This document shows, piece after piece, positions 49,153 to 56,263 of a stretch of 59,595 nucleotides of DNA. The DNA lies in the NCBI GenBank assembly GCA_902774055.1, contig CACYGX010000016.1, positions 1 to 59,595 on the forward strand. The letters are read 5' to 3'. This stretch comes from an uncultured Bacteroidales bacterium. Its GTDB lineage: Bacteria; Bacteroidota; Bacteroidia; Bacteroidales; Muribaculaceae. Both the position numbers and the translations under genes were made by a program. The notes beneath the pieces were generated by a model, which was not told where the DNA came from, did not search any database, and saw only the letters and a list, made by a program, of their open reading frames with translations. Numbering within the stretch: position 1 is the first letter of the stretch; every line of letters starts with the position of its first letter.

Positions 49153-50010
49153 ATGAAAAAGATTATCCTCTTCATCCTCGCCACTATCACAGTGAGCACC
49201 ATGTGGTCATGTGCCAAGAGCAACAACGGCAACACCACGTCAAATGATGGCAACAAAGTTACCGACAGCACCTTGTGCCAGTTTAATAATCTCGATGCCG
49301 AGAAAATGTTCGCCTACGTCAACGAGGAGGGCGATACAGTGTATTTTGATAACAAGTTCTCGGCATTCTGGCCCCAGATTATCAACGGCAAACCCTGCCC
49401 CGAACTCCAGCAAGCGCTGTTCAGAGCTATGACCGACAGCGCTGGGCTCAATGAGCTGGACAAGGTCACCGAATTCCTGCTGAATCCTGCCAACTATACC
49501 GAAATCGACACCAAGGACCTCATTCCTGTCAACGCCGTCAAGGACGATGAGAATAAACTCTCGACCAGCGAAATAGACGTGATCTTGAAAAGCATGAACG
49601 ACCGCCTGCTCGTCTATCATCTGGGAACAGACTCCTATTCGGCCGGCGCTGCTCACGGCATCTACGCCAACAACTATGTCACCTACGACCTCAAGACCGA
49701 GAAGGCTGTCACCTTTGACGACATAATCGCCGACACCACACTGTTGCGCACCGTAATCCTCAAGTCCATCAAGCAGGAATACAACTACGGCACAGACGAA
49801 CTCTTCCTGCCCGACAACGGCCTGCTGCCGCTACCTCGTGACTTCGTTCTCGACGGTCAAGTGTTCCACGCCATCTATCAGGTCTATGAAATCGCCAGTT
49901 ATGCCCAGGGCATGATCGACGCCCCCATCTATCCCTACCTGCTCAAACCCGAGGAAATCAAACGCCTCTTCACCCCCTACGGCCTAGAACTCCTCGACCT
50001 CGCAGAATAA
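49153..50010 (+). CDS. DUF3298-type lipoprotein
   Basis: 285 residues. Signal MKKIILFILATITVSTMWSC (Cys20). The C-terminal part has YSAGAAHGIYANNYVTYDLKTEKAVTFDDI, the hallmark of the DUF3298/DUF4163 (RsiV-like) fold, and ends LKPEEIKRLFTPYGLELL. Some relatives bind lysozyme; here the role is unknown. Convergent with the LuxR-type regulator gene, 12 bases apart. Confidence 0.85.
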   Translation: MKKIILFILATITVSTMWSCAKSNNGNTTSNDGNKVTDSTLCQFNNLDAEKMFAYVNEEGDTVYFDNKFSAFWPQIINGKPCPELQQALFRAMTDSAGLNELDKVTEFLLNPANYTEIDTKDLIPVNAVKDDENKLSTSEIDVILKSMNDRLLVYHLGTDSYSAGAAHGIYANNYVTYDLKTEKAVTFDDIIADTTLLRTVILKSIKQEYNYGTDELFLPDNGLLPLPRDFVLDGQVFHAIYQVYEIASYAQGMIDAPIYPYLLKPEEIKRLFTPYGLELLDLAE

Positions 50011-50022
50011 AACATCTGGATT

Positions 50023-50778
50023 CTACAACAGCCCCTGATTGGTGGCAACAGTGAGGGCCTCGGTAATGCTACGCACACCCAGGCGCTCAAACAGCGCACG
50101 CTTGTAAGTCTTGACGGTGTCCACTGCGCGACACATCTTATCGGCTATCTGAGGTACTGTATAACCCTGAGCCGACAGGATAAGCACCTGCTTTTCCTGT
50201 TGCCGCAGACTCACGCTTTTGCGTTCCTGCCAGCGGTGACCGTTCAGGTCATATTCCCAGTATATGGATTGACCCTTCTTGCGGAACTCTACGTGACCAG
50301 GCGTAGTGTGATGTGACATCGAAACGACACACATCGCCAGCCAGGCACGTCCGTCGGGTGCTAGGGCAAACGGTGTAATCTTGTGGTTTACTAGGTAGCA
50401 ATCCTCGCCATTCACAATATGGAAGTCGTAGCTCATGAAGCAGCGGCTGCGGTCAGCCATGGGCTCCTCGTTGAAGCGCTTGAAGCCCACCTCGTTGATC
50501 TCAGTGAGCATAATCTGTTCCTCGGCAGGCACGTGGTCGATATACAGGCGGTAGCCCATCTGACGCACCTCCTCGGCCGCATGTCCGCACAGGAATAGCG
50601 GATTACTCGCCACATACAGGAAACCATGCTTCAGGTAGTCGATGATATAAATACTCTGGTAGGTCGCATTGGCCATCGCATCGATGGCGCGTATCATGGG
50701 TTCAAGGTGGCGGTATTGCTCATCATCAATGCCCTCTACACTGTTGGTCAAGGTGAAGAAATCCTCAATTCTAGCCAT
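50023..50778 (-). CDS. LuxR-type HTH regulator with PAS-like sensor domain
   Basis: 251 residues from ATG 50778. ATGs at 50805 and 50820 overlap or precede the -7 box (50807-50814), so they are rejected. N-terminal PAS-like region (~35-120: SIYIIDYLKHGFLYVASNPL) and a C-terminal LuxR HTH (LRQQEKQVLILSAQGYTVPQ, then IADKMCRAVDTVKTYKRALFERL). No receiver domain, so it probably senses a ligand. It is divergent from an outer membrane barrel gene that carries paired palindromes, and is the obvious candidate to bind them. Confidence 0.88.
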   Translation of the reverse strand: MARIEDFFTLTNSVEGIDDEQYRHLEPMIRAIDAMANATYQSIYIIDYLKHGFLYVASNPLFLCGHAAEEVRQMGYRLYIDHVPAEEQIMLTEINEVGFKRFNEEPMADRSRCFMSYDFHIVNGEDCYLVNHKITPFALAPDGRAWLAMCVVSMSHHTTPGHVEFRKKGQSIYWEYDLNGHRWQERKSVSLRQQEKQVLILSAQGYTVPQIADKMCRAVDTVKTYKRALFERLGVRSITEALTVATNQGLL

Positions 50779-50806
50779 ATCACGGTCTTGCTGGTTGATA
50801 GTCATG

Positions 50807-50837
50807 CAAATGTACCCCAAATGCCCAATTCCGACAA
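50807..50837 (-). promoter_or_regulatory. promoter of the LuxR-type regulator
   Basis: On the minus strand: TTG (50835-50837), 20 bases, TACATTTG (50807-50814). It fixes the gene start at 50778. Confidence 0.75.
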
Positions 50838-50892
50838 CTGGTAAAACTTAAAAAGCCTTATCCTTAAGAAGTAGTAACATGTCACAAGGCAA

Positions 50893-50961
50893 TTTAACAC
50901 CCTAAAGTGTGAAAATGCAATTTCATCGCCCCGATACTGCAACCTTTCACCCTTTAGTGCG
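50893..50961 (+). promoter_or_regulatory. paired operator before barrel gene 1
   Basis: Palindrome CACCCTAAAGTGTG at 50898-50911 and CACCCTTTAGTGCG at 50948-50961, exactly 50 bp apart. The flanks TTTAACAC and TGCAACCTTT are also shared with the site at 53815-53883. The second palindrome ends 24 bases before the -7 box and covers the -33 region, where no TTG is found, which would suit an activator. Confidence 0.7.
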
Positions 50962-50985
50962 TGTCTCTATTGAAGTTTGTCTCGA

Positions 50986-50993
50986 TAATTTTG
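50986..50993 (+). promoter_or_regulatory. -7 box of barrel gene 1
   Basis: TAATTTTG, 28 bases before ATG 51022; no TTG at 17-23 bases upstream. Confidence 0.55.
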
Positions 50994-51021
50994 CAGTCGA
51001 ACAAACCAAAAAAGAGAGATT

Positions 51022-53337
51022 ATGATTGAACGAACTATTATCTTCATTGTAGAACTATTCATTGCGGCTTTGACAGCTGTGGCAGGTACGATTACAGGCC
51101 GTGTGCTGGATGAGAATCATGTGCCGATGCCCTATGTGAACGTATTATTGCTCAATAGTGCTGATTCCACTTTTATCCAAGGCTCTGTGACTGGTGAAGA
51201 TGGTGCCTTCTCAATTGCTGGAGAGTTGGAATCTGGTATATTGAAAATATCCAGCGTGGGATACAAGACCCTGTGCATTGACGTAACTCCAGGCAACGTG
51301 GGTAGTATTGTGATGGAACCTGACGCGGCAATGCTCGATGATGTAGTGGTCAAGGGATATCGTCCCGTCCATAAATTAGGTACAGAAGGGCTACTTACCA
51401 CTATCGAGGGCTCGATTTTGTGTCAATTGGGAACTGCTGAGGACGTATTGAGAAATGTTCCCGGCATCTTGAGCAAAGATGGCGGTATTGAGGTATTCGG
51501 CAAGGGCAAACCCCTCATTTACATCAATAATCGCCTGATGCGCGACGCGTCGGAACTCAACGAATTGAAATCACAAGACATCGTAAGTGTCGAGGTCATC
51601 AACAATCCTGGTGCCAAGTATGATGCTTCGGTGCAAAGCGTGATTCGGATTAAGACACGCAAGCCACTGGGTGAGGGATGGGGCGGTCACCTGCGCAGCA
51701 GTTTCTTCCAGGGCGAAATGTCCCGCACCTATAATGCCTTTCTTTGGAATTACCGTCACCAGGGATTGGATGTCTTCGGTACAGTCAGCGACTTTGAGAA
51801 TGGCTGGTTACAGAAATACCGCATTACTCAGGACGTCACTGCCGACACAATTTGGCATCAGGACAATCACGGCCGCAGTCAGGGTAATTACAACATCTTG
51901 CGCTTAGTATTTGGAGCCAATTACCAGTTTAATAATAAGCATACGATGGGCATCCAATATAACAGCAGTATTCGTCTCAGGGATGTTGACAAAGGCTTTT
52001 TTGCAGCCGAAGTGACCGCTAACGGCAATTTCTACGACAGCCTGATGACCAATAGTAAGAATAAAACACGACACAATATGCCGCACTCGCTCAATTTCTA
52101 TTATAATGGCGAAGTAGGCAAGACAAACATCGATTTTAATGCCGATTACTATTTTACCAAAAACCGCGAGAGTGAATGGAACCTTGAGGAGAGCCAAGAG
52201 CGGAAAGACCGCACAGTAACCAGCGAGAATACCGTGAGAAATGAACTGTTTGCCGGCAAACTCGTGCTCTCATGGACATTATGGTGTGGCAACCTGTCGG
52301 TGGGCAGTGAAATTGACTACACCCACCGCAACGATGATTACCTTAACCCTGAGCAGATTGTTCCGTCAAGTTACACCGAGGTCAAGGAACGCAACTACAG
52401 CGCTTTTATTGAGTATAGCCGGTTGACACCCATTGGTCAGGTAAGTGGTGGATTGCGTGACGAATATGTCACCACCGACTACTACAGTCAAGGCGTTCAC
52501 ATGGACGGGCAAAGCCGTCATCAGAACCACTTGTTTCCCAGCATATCGTTATCGACTCAGGTAGGCAATGTTAATATGATGCTGGACTATGCGATGAAGA
52601 TTCGCCGCCCTACATATTTTGAGCTCAGTAACAAGACTTATTATTCTAACCGTTTCACTTGGCAATCGGGCAACCCGTTTCTGAAGCCCACCATCATCAA
52701 TAACTTGACACTGGATGCCACATGGAAGTTTCTCTCTCTTAACATGAGTTACTCCCACCTCAAGGATGTCGTTCTACAGTTAGGACGCCAGATAGAGGGG
52801 CATGAGTCCACTACGCTCATCATACAAGAGAATATCGACAAAAAGGATGTGCTGAGCCTTAGCCTAACAGCCGCACCACAGTTTGGCATTTGGCATCCGC
52901 AATTGACTCTCTCACTAATGAAAGACTGGATGAAGATTCCCATGCCCTATGGTTATTACACCCCCTCGCGACCCATTTTTAGTGGCCAGTGGAATAATAC
53001 CTTCAAGTTTTCACCCACATGGACTGGGTCGCTCTCCCTTGACTGGCAGAGCACGGGTGACAGCGAGAACATCAGCAGCCGCAGCCATCAACTTGACCTG
53101 TACATCGGCTTGACCAAGACATTCTTAGATGACCGACTGTCAGTTAAGGTTGCGGGGCATGACCTCTTTCATCGCAATGGCCAGGACGTGCTGGTGCACT
53201 TCGGTGAGTTGACCTTGTGGCAGCACCGCACCAACGAAACCCGTTATGCCGAGGTGACCGTGCGTTATCACTTCAACTGGACACGAAGCAAGTACAAGGG
53301 CACAGGAGCCGGAAATCAAGAGAAAAACAGGCTATGA
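51022..53337 (+). CDS. TonB-receptor-like outer membrane barrel protein 1
   Basis: 771 residues. Signal peptide (ending ~21), carboxypeptidase-regulatory-like domain (TITGRVLDENHVPMPYVNVL, ~22-105), plug-like region (EDVLRNVPGILSKDGGIEVF, PLIYINNRL, ~110-215) and a barrel of the outer-membrane family-3 type ending FNWTRSKYKGTGAGNQEKNRL. It is shorter than SusC and has no SusD neighbour. Paralogue of the protein at 53954. The stop overlaps the ATG of a 114-aa gene. Confidence 0.88.
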   Translation: MIERTIIFIVELFIAALTAVAGTITGRVLDENHVPMPYVNVLLLNSADSTFIQGSVTGEDGAFSIAGELESGILKISSVGYKTLCIDVTPGNVGSIVMEPDAAMLDDVVVKGYRPVHKLGTEGLLTTIEGSILCQLGTAEDVLRNVPGILSKDGGIEVFGKGKPLIYINNRLMRDASELNELKSQDIVSVEVINNPGAKYDASVQSVIRIKTRKPLGEGWGGHLRSSFFQGEMSRTYNAFLWNYRHQGLDVFGTVSDFENGWLQKYRITQDVTADTIWHQDNHGRSQGNYNILRLVFGANYQFNNKHTMGIQYNSSIRLRDVDKGFFAAEVTANGNFYDSLMTNSKNKTRHNMPHSLNFYYNGEVGKTNIDFNADYYFTKNRESEWNLEESQERKDRTVTSENTVRNELFAGKLVLSWTLWCGNLSVGSEIDYTHRNDDYLNPEQIVPSSYTEVKERNYSAFIEYSRLTPIGQVSGGLRDEYVTTDYYSQGVHMDGQSRHQNHLFPSISLSTQVGNVNMMLDYAMKIRRPTYFELSNKTYYSNRFTWQSGNPFLKPTIINNLTLDATWKFLSLNMSYSHLKDVVLQLGRQIEGHESTTLIIQENIDKKDVLSLSLTAAPQFGIWHPQLTLSLMKDWMKIPMPYGYYTPSRPIFSGQWNNTFKFSPTWTGSLSLDWQSTGDSENISSRSHQLDLYIGLTKTFLDDRLSVKVAGHDLFHRNGQDVLVHFGELTLWQHRTNETRYAEVTVRYHFNWTRSKYKGTGAGNQEKNRL

Positions 53338-53678
53338 AACAGGAATTGAGATATATCGATTTGTCGTGGGCAGTCGTGGCCGTGTGTGAGACTGATTCAT
53401 TCACCATCAATCAGCTCGTCCACAACGACAGTGTAGAGCAAGCTGTAGAACGTTACGTTATCGGTTATATGGCTTTTTGGCAGATCGCTTTTGTCGAGAG
53501 AGAGCGGCTGGTCCCTTGCGATGACGAGACACTGCGAGCATCCGCCCGCCGCAAGATTGACCGCCACATTGCCAAACACCCGCCCGTAGAATGCCTGCCT
53601 CGTTTCTATATCGTGCTGCTCGGGCAGCCCTTCGCGCCACTTGAACCCGATGGCATGACCAGCGTCTATCAAATATAA
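53334..53678 (+). CDS. small protein of unknown function, 114 aa
   Basis: ATG 53334 overlaps the stop of barrel gene 1 (ATGA). Starts MKQELRYIDLSWAVVAVCET and contains VIGYMAFWQIAFVERERLVP and an Arg/His-rich helix (RASARRKIDRHIAKHP). No signal peptide, so probably cytoplasmic. No family is recognised. Coupled translation suggests it acts with the barrel protein or its control. Confidence 0.7.
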   Translation: MKQELRYIDLSWAVVAVCETDSFTINQLVHNDSVEQAVERYVIGYMAFWQIAFVERERLVPCDDETLRASARRKIDRHIAKHPPVECLPRFYIVLLGQPFAPLEPDGMTSVYQI

Positions 53679-53701
53679 ATGTGATGTTTTAATTTTTTAA
53701 C

Positions 53702-53790
53702 TGCTCCGTAACGACTTAAAAAAATGGGTTACGGAGTACCATTTTTGGTTTTTACTACTCCGTAACGGTAAAAAACAACGTTACGGAGCA
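53702..53790 (+). promoter_or_regulatory. four-segment stem-loop switch
   Basis: Four complementary segments: 1 TGCTCCGTAACG (53702-53713), 2 GTTACGGAGTA (53728-53738), 3 TACTCCGTAACG (53756-53767), 4 CGTTACGGAGCA (53779-53790). Segments can pair 1-2 and 3-4 as two hairpins, or 1-4 (12 bp) with 2-3 (11 bp) nested. It lies between the 114-aa gene and the operator of barrel gene 2, so it could be a terminator, attenuator or processing site. Confidence 0.75.
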
Positions 53791-53814
53791 CTAATTTTCT
53801 CTTTATCTGCCTTT

Positions 53815-53883
53815 TTTAACACACTAAAGGGTGAAAAAGAAAAAAGATTGATGAGTGCTTGCAACCTTTCACCCTAGGTTGTG
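53815..53883 (+). promoter_or_regulatory. paired operator before barrel gene 2
   Basis: Palindrome CACACTAAAGGGTG at 53820-53833 and a weaker copy CACCCTAGGTTGTG at 53870-53883, again exactly 50 bp apart, with the same flanks (TTTAACAC, TGCAACCTTT) as at 50893-50961. No good -7 box was found between it and ATG 53954. Confidence 0.7.
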
Positions 53884-53953
53884 CGTCTATAGGGAAAACG
53901 GTAGGAAAATATTGCTACCAGTAAAATGATAACTCAATAAAACCTATAGACAA

Positions 53954-56263
53954 ATGAAAAGAAACTTTTTCACACTGATGATGGCGCTGGTGGTCGCACT
54001 GACCGCAGCTGCCGACACGTTTACCGGGCGAGTAGTTGACGAGACGCACGCACCAGCGCCCTTTGTCAACGTGGTGATGCTCAATGCCAGCGACAGCGCT
54101 TTTGTGGCAGGAACGACGACCGATACCGATGGGCGGTTCACCCTCACGGGTAACGCCACCCGTCCCATCGTGTTAATCACCTATCTGGGTTACAAGGCGC
54201 TGGTGCTGAATGCAGCAGGCAATGACTTGGGTACCATCGCACTGGAGCCCGAGGCGACCATGCTGTCCGAGGTCGTCGTCAAGGGGCAGCGCCCCGCCTT
54301 CAAGTTGACGACCGAGGGCCTCAAGACCGAGGTGGAAAACACGCTGTTAAGCAAGGTGGGCACCGCCAAGGCTGTGCTCGAGAACCTGCCGGGCGTGCAG
54401 CGCAAGAAGGACGGACTGGAAGTCTTCGGCAAGGGTACACCGCTCATCTATATCAACGGCCGCAAACTCCAAAACCAAACCGAACTGGACCAAATCAGCA
54501 GTGAGGACATCCAAAGTGTGGAACTGATTACCAGCCCCGGTGCGAAGTATGATGCCACAGTCGAGTCGGTCATCCTCATCAAGACCAAGCGGCCGCAAGG
54601 CGAAGGCTTCAGTTTCAACACCCAAGCCTCTTACTACGTGGGCGAGGGTCCCGACCTGGCGCTAGGCTTGAACTGGAACTACCGCCACAAGGGGCTGGAC
54701 GTGTTCGGCAGCGTGTGGTACAACGATGACAAGTACCTGGAGAACGACGATTTCGTCTTTGACGTGCAAGCCGACACCACATGGCGCATGAATGAGCATT
54801 CCGACTTCAAGAGCCACGACAACTCGATTTACACCTCGGCGGGAGTGAACTACATCTTCAACGACAACCACTCGATGGGCTTCAGATATGATACCAAGAC
54901 CTATTTCCTGAACCGTACCCGCGGCACCTTCACCGCCGACGTAATGGCCAATGGAGAGTTTTATGACCACTTGGAGAATGGTGTCCACATGAACACCAAG
55001 TCCAACATGCCCCACACCCTCAATGCCTACTACAACGGCCGTGTGGGCAAGACCTCGATTGACTTCAATACGGACTATGTCTTCCATAAGGACCGCAAGA
55101 GCCAGTTCAACAATGAAGTGAGTCAGGAATGGGAAAGCCGCACAGTGACCAGCACCAGTGTGGTTCGCAACCAGCTGTGTGCGGCAAAACTCGTCCTGTC
55201 ATGGCTGCTGTGGGGCGGCAACCTACAGGTGGGTACTGAGTATGACCACACACGCCGCAACGACGAGTACATCAACCCCGAACAGGTCGTGCCCACTTCC
55301 TTCACCGAGCAGAAGGAGAACAACTACATCTTCTTTGCCGAGTACGGCCATCCACTGCCTTTTGGTCAGTTGAAGGTGGGCCTGCGCAACGAGAACGTCA
55401 ACACCGACTACTATAGCCAGGGTGTGCGCATGGCCGAACAGAGCCGCAATTACCACCACTTCTTCCCCAGCGTGGGACTGATGGCACGAGCAGGCAATGT
55501 GCAACTGATGCTGAACTATGCGATGAAAATCAAGCGTCCTGGCTACTGGCAGCTGCGTGGCAGTGTCACCTATGCCAACCGTTTCACGTGGGACAGCGGC
55601 AACCCTTATCTCAAGCCCACTATCAACAACGAGGTATCGTTCATGGCAATCTACAAGTGGATGAACCTGATGTTGGGCTACAAGCATGACCGCGACGTGA
55701 TTGTCAACGTGGCGCATGAGATACCCGGCAGTGAAGCCACCACACTGATGACCACCGAGAATGTGGACCACAAGGATGCAATGCGCGTGATGCTCACCTT
55801 CTCACCGCGCTTCGGACTCTATCAGCCGCAACTCACTTTGGGCGTCATCAAGGATTGGATCAAGATACCATCACCCGTAGGCTTCATTTCCCCCAAGAAC
55901 CCCGCCTACATCATGCAGTTCAATAACAACTTCCAGATTATCCCCACCCTAACGGCCAACGTCAACTTCAATTTCTCCAGCCGTGGCGACATAGAAAACG
56001 TCACCCTCTCCGAGCCCCAGTATCTGCTCGACATCGGCGCCACCAAGACCTTTTTGAACGACCGCCTGTCCATCCAGGTGACAGGTCACAACCTGCTCAA
56101 TTCACATGAGCATTACAAACTGCGCTACGGGCTGCGCACGATGCAGCAGGTTCAGCGCCGTGATGTCCGCGAGGTGGAATTCACCGTCCGCTACAAGTTC
56201 AACGCTGCACAGAGCAAGTACAAGGGCACTGGTGCAGGCTCTAGCGAGAAGGAACGCTTCTAA
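53954..56263 (+). CDS. TonB-receptor-like outer membrane barrel protein 2
   Basis: 769 residues, clearly paralogous to the product of 51022 along its length (same domain order and shared segments such as TPLIYINGR, RFTWDSGNPYLKPT, KYKGTGAG). Signal peptide MKRNFFTLMMALVVALTAAA, regulatory-like domain, plug-like region, barrel. GC-richer in codon choice than gene 1, so the duplication is not recent or one copy was acquired. Ends before a terminator-type hairpin at 56285-56376. Confidence 0.88.
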   Translation: MKRNFFTLMMALVVALTAAADTFTGRVVDETHAPAPFVNVVMLNASDSAFVAGTTTDTDGRFTLTGNATRPIVLITYLGYKALVLNAAGNDLGTIALEPEATMLSEVVVKGQRPAFKLTTEGLKTEVENTLLSKVGTAKAVLENLPGVQRKKDGLEVFGKGTPLIYINGRKLQNQTELDQISSEDIQSVELITSPGAKYDATVESVILIKTKRPQGEGFSFNTQASYYVGEGPDLALGLNWNYRHKGLDVFGSVWYNDDKYLENDDFVFDVQADTTWRMNEHSDFKSHDNSIYTSAGVNYIFNDNHSMGFRYDTKTYFLNRTRGTFTADVMANGEFYDHLENGVHMNTKSNMPHTLNAYYNGRVGKTSIDFNTDYVFHKDRKSQFNNEVSQEWESRTVTSTSVVRNQLCAAKLVLSWLLWGGNLQVGTEYDHTRRNDEYINPEQVVPTSFTEQKENNYIFFAEYGHPLPFGQLKVGLRNENVNTDYYSQGVRMAEQSRNYHHFFPSVGLMARAGNVQLMLNYAMKIKRPGYWQLRGSVTYANRFTWDSGNPYLKPTINNEVSFMAIYKWMNLMLGYKHDRDVIVNVAHEIPGSEATTLMTTENVDHKDAMRVMLTFSPRFGLYQPQLTLGVIKDWIKIPSPVGFISPKNPAYIMQFNNNFQIIPTLTANVNFNFSSRGDIENVTLSEPQYLLDIGATKTFLNDRLSIQVTGHNLLNSHEHYKLRYGLRTMQQVQRRDVREVEFTVRYKFNAAQSKYKGTGAGSSEKERF

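Follow-up and report, generated by a model that had tools for sequence, protein, structure and literature searches.

Introduction

The closest described system is N-acyl-cyclolysine (ACL) signalling. Its regulator AclR senses ACLs and AclB acylates lysine, and autoinduction is reported for acl loci. The discovery of N-acyl-cyclolysines in Bacteroidota is attributed in PMC13419125 to Linares-Otoya et al. (2025, Nature 646:423). We present here a locus at positions 50,023 to 56,263 of a 59,595-nt contig (CACYGX010000016.1, assembly GCA_902774055.1; this whole stretch is called the window) from an uncultured rumen Bacteroidales bacterium of the family Muribaculaceae. A probable AclR-family regulator gene is divergent from two paralogous barrel genes with a gene for a 114-aa protein between them, and each barrel gene is preceded by a pair of palindromes. 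We favor, with a probability of about 0.57, the reading that this is a receiver-only AclR branch that would respond to an ACL-type ligand and activate two SusC-like receptors together with the 114-aa protein. The lineage would be non-producing, with no synthase gene (aclA or aclB) detected in its own draft genome.

Results

The genes of the locus are as follows.

50023..50778, minus strand: predicted PAS-LuxR regulator, AclR family, 251 aa (260 aa from an in-frame ATG at 50805)
51022..53337, plus strand: barrel 1, 771 aa, carboxypeptidase-regulatory-like domain and OMP_b-brl_3 (Pfam)
53334..53678, plus strand: open reading frame (ORF) of 114 aa, overlapping the end of barrel 1 by 4 bp
53954..56263, plus strand: barrel 2, 769 aa, paralogue of barrel 1 (49% identical), with the two Pfam domains of barrel 1

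The genes and coordinates given in the original prediction, an annotation made from the DNA letters alone, were correct, as was the coupling of the 114-aa gene to barrel 1 through the 4-bp overlap. The regulator matches Pfam GerE (E value, 1e-10), its AlphaFold2 model (pLDDT 90.6) combines a mixed N-terminal domain with a helix-turn-helix (HTH), and the best Foldseek hits are 3clo and VqmA. The PAS-HTH fold is thus a supported prediction, in agreement with the PAS-LuxR identity proposed originally. The autoinducer-binding domain of acyl-homoserine lactone-type LuxR proteins was not among the nine Pfam families listed (E values up to 1); the predicted fold is PAS-like instead.

Relatives were collected by a regulator-profile search of genome contigs, from which the best 80 of 225 loci were kept. 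A window-type clade of 51 loci was set by identity (regulator at least 62% identical, genus not checked per locus). The remaining 29 loci, outside this clade, include L172, L180, and L190, which are second regulators in metagenome-assembled genomes that also carry window-type ones. Genome surveys covered 101 draft assemblies, 61 of them from the same genus; the window's own draft is 3.17 Mb long.

The window regulator shares 41 to 49% identity with nine acl-linked regulators, with 47 to 52% over the PAS core and 39 to 50% over the HTH. An AclA- or AclB-profile gene lies within 4 kb of the regulator in 18 of the 29 loci outside the clade, and many relatives at 40 to 49% identity adjoin a ThiF gene. 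The ThiF gene adjoining the Tenacibaculum discolor regulator matches solved AclA (9egb, 9egc, and 9egd; E value, 2e-122), and three of the AclB-called genes that were scanned have sub-cutoff matches to Pfam FeeM, the N-acyl amino acid synthase family. In a 41-row tree, the window clade forms one group (support 100/100). Its neighbors are L161 and L166, both with a relative of the 114-aa gene (80/73), and next outward come the Prevotella regulators, two of three adjoining AclA (90/87). Because acl-linked regulators lie scattered over several places in the tree (6 changes, with a root placed by midpoint only), loss of the synthases in the window lineage is the simpler reading. Sequence comparison supports membership of the window regulator in the AclR family. 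The module had been called undescribed, a description that does not stand: the regulator has relatives across the phylum, often beside aclA or aclB and with the same operator geometry.

The candidate control elements of the three promoters are as follows.

50896..50914: candidate distal operator of barrel 1 (core 50898-50911), exact CACNCTWWAGNGTG, conserved in relatives
50938..50961: candidate proximal operator of barrel 1, TGCAACCTTT plus core 50948-50961, one mismatch, conserved
53818..53836: candidate distal operator of barrel 2 (core 53820-53833), exact CACNCTWWAGNGTG, conserved in relatives
53860..53883: degenerate candidate proximal operator of barrel 2 (core 53870-53883), TGCAACCTTTCACCC exact, right half-site diverged
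50986..50993, plus strand: candidate −7 box of barrel 1, TAATTTTG, proximal site 38 bp upstream, no TTG at −33 spacing
50807..50838, minus strand: likely regulator promoter, −7 box TACATTTG at 50814-50807, −33 TTG at 50837-50835, 20-nt spacer

Distal and proximal sites are 50 bp apart at both barrel promoters, which also have the flanks TTTAACAC and TGCAACCTTT in common, as the original prediction had it. Its claim of paired identical palindromes holds for the distal sites, where CACNCTWWAGNGTG occurs exactly (at 50898 and 53820, and nowhere else in the whole draft assembly), but the proximal sites carry one mismatch (50948) and three (53870, CACCCTAGGTTGTG, by direct count against the consensus; this site is not in the 2-mismatch scan). 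The missing TTG of barrel 1 had been seen correctly. At barrel 2, the −7 box AAATATTG lies 37 bp past the proximal site and is a poor match. The regulator promoter is likely, as read from its letters, of the canonical Bacteroidota type, and closer relatives show this −7 box as well. A start at 50778 is favored for the regulator because conservation sets in at this position and the ATG further upstream comes immediately after the −7 box.

The −7 consensus TANNTTTGY is given in PMC12632263. Promoters were scanned for TAnnTTTG-like boxes with one mismatch allowed. Outside the clade, 29 loci were tested and the gene-nearest site lay 37 bp before the −7 box in 24 of the 24 with a match, L163, L167, L170, L180, and L186 giving no site/−7 box match; shuffled regions gave 91 matches in approximately 2,900 trials, at distances scattered over 33 to 41. 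Inside the clade, the distance was 36 to 38 bp in 45 of 51 loci. A −33 TTG was absent from 62 of 68 promoters and was found in none of the 32 fetched-locus promoters with a perfect −7 box (barrel 2 of the window, with its poor box, was excluded). With the box taken as −7, the proximal site is centered near −42 and the distal site near −81 or −92, positions comparable to those of class II and class I activators. The fixed distance without a −33 TTG is the strongest evidence for a functional activator operator and bears out the activator geometry suggested originally. That the palindromes are AclR-type boxes placed for activation is well supported, and the regulator would bind and activate there.

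Pairing extends across the relatives. Of the 80 loci, 58 have in their divergent region a pair of the generic palindrome YACMCWNNWGKGTR, which was composed after inspection of about 20 regions; the spacing is 50 (29 loci), 49 (13), 48 (4), 39 (6), 38 (5), or 30 bp (1); at each of the 58, 0 of 100 shuffles equalled the pair. The two modes, 48 to 50 bp (46 loci) and 38 to 39 bp (11 loci), differ by about one helical turn, consistent with the helical phasing proposed earlier. Among the 22 loci without a pair, L118, L138, L166, and L188 have fewer than 130 upstream bases; L161 and L166 carry a 39-bp pair before the barrel instead of in the divergent region. A paired-site scan with AACACNCTAAAGNGTGAAA and TGCAACNTTTCACCC, mismatches permitted, found pairs in 42 of 56 sources, with hits at 50 (38), 49 (14), 48 (4), 39 (2), and 42 bp (1), among which a minus-strand 49-bp hit in L078 merely repeats its pair in reverse and the hit at 42 bp, in L194, overlaps a 50-bp pair. 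The exact 50-bp spacing of the original prediction therefore applies to the window, but relatives have 48 to 50 bp, and two diverged promoters have 39 bp. Barrel 1 and barrel 2 promoters have different DNA between their sites, and so do the different groups.

Site and regulator occur together. AACACNCTAAAGNGTGAAA with at most one mismatch was present in 39 of 101 genomes, and a reversed control pattern was present in none. In the same genus, 31 of 33 genomes with the regulator had the site versus 7 of 28 without (Fisher P = 1.9e-8; species are not independent). In this count, a fragment of 66 residues at a contig edge of G008 was not taken as a regulator; the contig of G035 begins at the 114-aa gene, and the regulator of this genome may have escaped assembly. 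The two regulator-bearing genomes without the site are G020, whose regulator lies at the edge of a contig, and G015, whose site has diverged. The palindrome was not frequent elsewhere, and the divergent regulator stands as its likely binder, as first proposed.

A full AclA was not found in the window's own draft genome, the best match (48 bits, positions 3 to 120 of 250) being like a generic ThiF. Of the 61 same-genus genomes, only G033 and G020 have a full AclA-like gene, and the 16-kb stretches around these genes held no aclB or regulator. The two full-length AclA-like genes, at L221:7873-8658 and L222:7787-8548, are each followed by a gene for 286 to 287 aa that matched none of the profiles used; their downstream surroundings differ. 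None of the 101 genomes gave a match to the AclB profile, with sensitivity limited according to a control in which it detected AclB-like frames in four of seven genomes (two that had supplied rows to the profile and two that had not). Of the five nonsource genomes in that control, one gave AclB as broken frames, one gave it with a flagged stop, and three gave none, one of these with aclA beside the regulator. Since the assemblies are drafts, absence of aclA and aclB is not proof. The regulator sites in the window precede the barrel genes and not a synthase gene. Because no synthase was detected in the genome, the locus is not assigned to the ACL system itself. In Prevotella disiens, AclB-like frames (L243 and L244) are broken by stops, and the AclR-like regulator of the same genome (L165) faces two barrels whose operator pairs are spaced by 39 bp.

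The 114-aa protein, described originally as of unknown family, has no Pfam match but resembles the C-terminal segment of the AclA profile (hhalign, 95 to 96%; pairwise E values, 4e-8 and 2e-9; controls, 0.1 to 0.2%), from which it appears to derive. The nucleotide-binding half of AclA (ThiF family) is missing, so the protein cannot be the ACL-cyclising enzyme. The gene is under selection (median dN/dS, 0.18), and a relative in G089 lies convergent to the end of the regulator, which is the place of AclA in acl loci. Possible roles of the 114-aa protein are signal binding and modulation of the regulator.

The barrels are SusC/TonB-dependent-receptor-like, as judged by profile comparison: their profile matches the solved structures of SusC, RagA, and the colicin I receptor, aligned mainly over the N-terminal domain and plug region. 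Barrel 2 has a weak Plug match just below the curated cutoff, and barrel 1 has none. The SusC-like barrel of a SusC/SusD-type uptake system is present and the adjacent SusD lipoprotein is not, with no SusD-sized free-standing ORF between the regulator and the GH97 gene. Of the uptake or export module proposed at the outset, this likeness makes uptake (of a signal or nutrient) the likelier function and export less likely.

The own genome contains a second AclR-like regulator (L087, G000:C40:1-9000), 42% identical to the first and adjoining a PF14905 barrel. A third CACCCTTTTGGGTR site lies on its contig, C40, beyond the two in its divergent region, and in L086, a relative of this regulator, the palindromes are 49 bp apart. 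Across the genome, 23 generic palindromes were counted versus 8 for the reversed control; 2 are the distal sites of the window, 3 are on C40, and 18 lie elsewhere.

In the window, barrel 1, the 114-aa gene, and barrel 2 run divergently from the regulator and are followed by tRNA-Asp and a convergent GH97 gene. A DUF3298 gene at 49153-50010 is convergent with the regulator and is sometimes duplicated in relatives that have it. The order nudix, DUF3298, regulator, barrel 1, 114-aa gene, barrel 2, GH97 is kept in, e.g., L052, L058, L060, and L064. In other relatives, an insert separates the 114-aa gene from barrel 2 (L123:4065-5030, L116:3502-4974, and L134:2231-3619); depending on the relative, this spot holds an IS200-like transposase, a PF01637 ATPase, or an AAA_14/DUF4143 ATPase. 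A second synteny group has the regulator and a single barrel close to barrel 2. In a few relatives the site precedes a different gene, e.g., of the beta-lactamase family (L148) or DUF6249-like (L077). Two tandem hairpins, CTCCGTAAC..GTTACGGAG, lie between the 114-aa gene and barrel 2 (53704-53736 and 53758-53788). They are the sole exact copies in the genome, a similar hairpin occurs at the equivalent position in several relatives, and they are perhaps a terminator or processing element.

Discussion

In the mechanism that we infer, from ligand identity, regulator binding, and activation to the role of the 114-aa protein and the substrate of the receptors, the PAS domain would bind a small ligand, most likely of the N-acyl-cyclolysine type and made by neighboring Bacteroidota. 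Dimers would occupy the proximal palindrome near −42, in place of a −33 element, and also, 50 bp upstream of it and on approximately the same helical face, the distal palindrome. RNA polymerase would be recruited to two weak promoters, turning on two SusC-like receptors and the cotranslated 114-aa protein. A fuller version is more tentative, and we think it possible but doubtful as a whole: AclR as a nonproducing ear through which ACLs from neighbors switch on two dedicated outer-membrane receptors, helped by a repurposed AclA remnant that acts inside the cell by binding the signal or modulating the regulator. One promoter grammar would hold across the phylum, its first box near −42 and a second, optional one about four to five turns of the helix upstream.

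Several observations weigh against the receiver-only reading. G006, G018, G019, G025, G052, and G054 have the site and a barrel 2 relative with no regulator found, and of these G006 and G019 look functional. L087 departs from the spacing, with two exact CACCCTTTTGGGTR palindromes 116 bp apart in its divergent region. The PAS core is also 45 to 52% identical to L175, L179, L180, L190, and L192, none of which lies beside acl genes. The flanks of G006, G019, and G025 show the regulator, barrel 1, and the 114-aa gene missing as a block, and the proximal sites of G018 and G052 are degraded. Candidate explanations for the six genomes are recent loss, a regulator at some other place, and a different binding protein. 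In G025 (contig C26, L194), the barrel 2 relative has a large internal deletion and the operator pair is largely kept.

The leading alternative, which we regard as less likely, is that this AclR-family regulator has changed its ligand and senses a nutrient, host, or diet molecule that both receptors import, with unchanged operators and activation and no cell-cell signaling. The absence of a detected synthase and the SusC/RagA matches of the barrels suit it, as does the second regulator with its own CACCCTTTTGGGTR sites and PF14905 barrel, from which it follows that such pairs of regulator and receptor multiply. Identity over the PAS core fails to distinguish acl-linked regulators from the others, so it does not prove the ligand. 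However, the PAS core is conserved at least as well as the HTH against most acl-linked regulators, and the AclA-like segment in the 114-aa gene is kept under selection.

Repression, with dimers at the proximal site blocking the promoter and the 50-bp pair allowing looping or cooperative repression, would account for a site just upstream of the −7 box but is improbable: the site stops 23 to 24 bp short of that box and does not cover it, the general lack of a −33 TTG is expected of activator-dependent promoters, and the same site precedes aclB in several acl loci, where autoinduction is said to occur. Equally improbable is binding by some other protein with the neighboring regulator incidental, since the six genomes with sites and no detected regulator are set against the concentration of the site in regulator-bearing genomes and against the same palindrome type and 37-bp geometry beside relatives of the regulator in other Bacteroidota families.

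If the receiver-only reading is true, it would mean listening without talking in a dominant phylum of the gut and rumen. It would also give a DNA signature for AclR-type regulons (a palindrome 37 bp before TAnnTTTG, with an optional partner 38 to 39 or 48 to 50 bp up), tie an orphan 114-aa family to AclA, and suggest outer-membrane receptors as a common output of ACL signaling.

Among known systems, the best sequence and fold match to the window regulator in the PDB is NP_811094.1 of Bacteroides thetaiotaomicron (3clo), at 19% identity. The VqmA-type PAS-LuxR receptors of Vibrio (6ugl and 6ide) share the PAS and GerE architecture (Foldseek E value, 2e-7) but are 14 to 16% identical and differ in phylum, target, and ligand. 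Like SusC/RagA TonB-dependent receptors, the window barrels have a carboxypeptidase-regulatory-like domain, a plug-like region, and a barrel; unlike them, they are approximately 770 aa long, have a PF14905 barrel, and adjoin no SusD-sized gene. Compared with the ACL signaling system, the operators here front receptors and not an acyltransferase, the genome lacks a detected full aclA or aclB, and the AclA relative is 114 aa long without the nucleotide-binding half. The two share the regulator family, the palindrome type 37 bp before the −7 box, to which a second site may be added, and a coencoded relative of part of AclA; several acl loci also have PF14905 barrel genes nearby. The palindrome about 37 bp before the −7 box, a feature of the AclR regulator family drawn from the present analysis, is found at barrel 1 at 38 bp.

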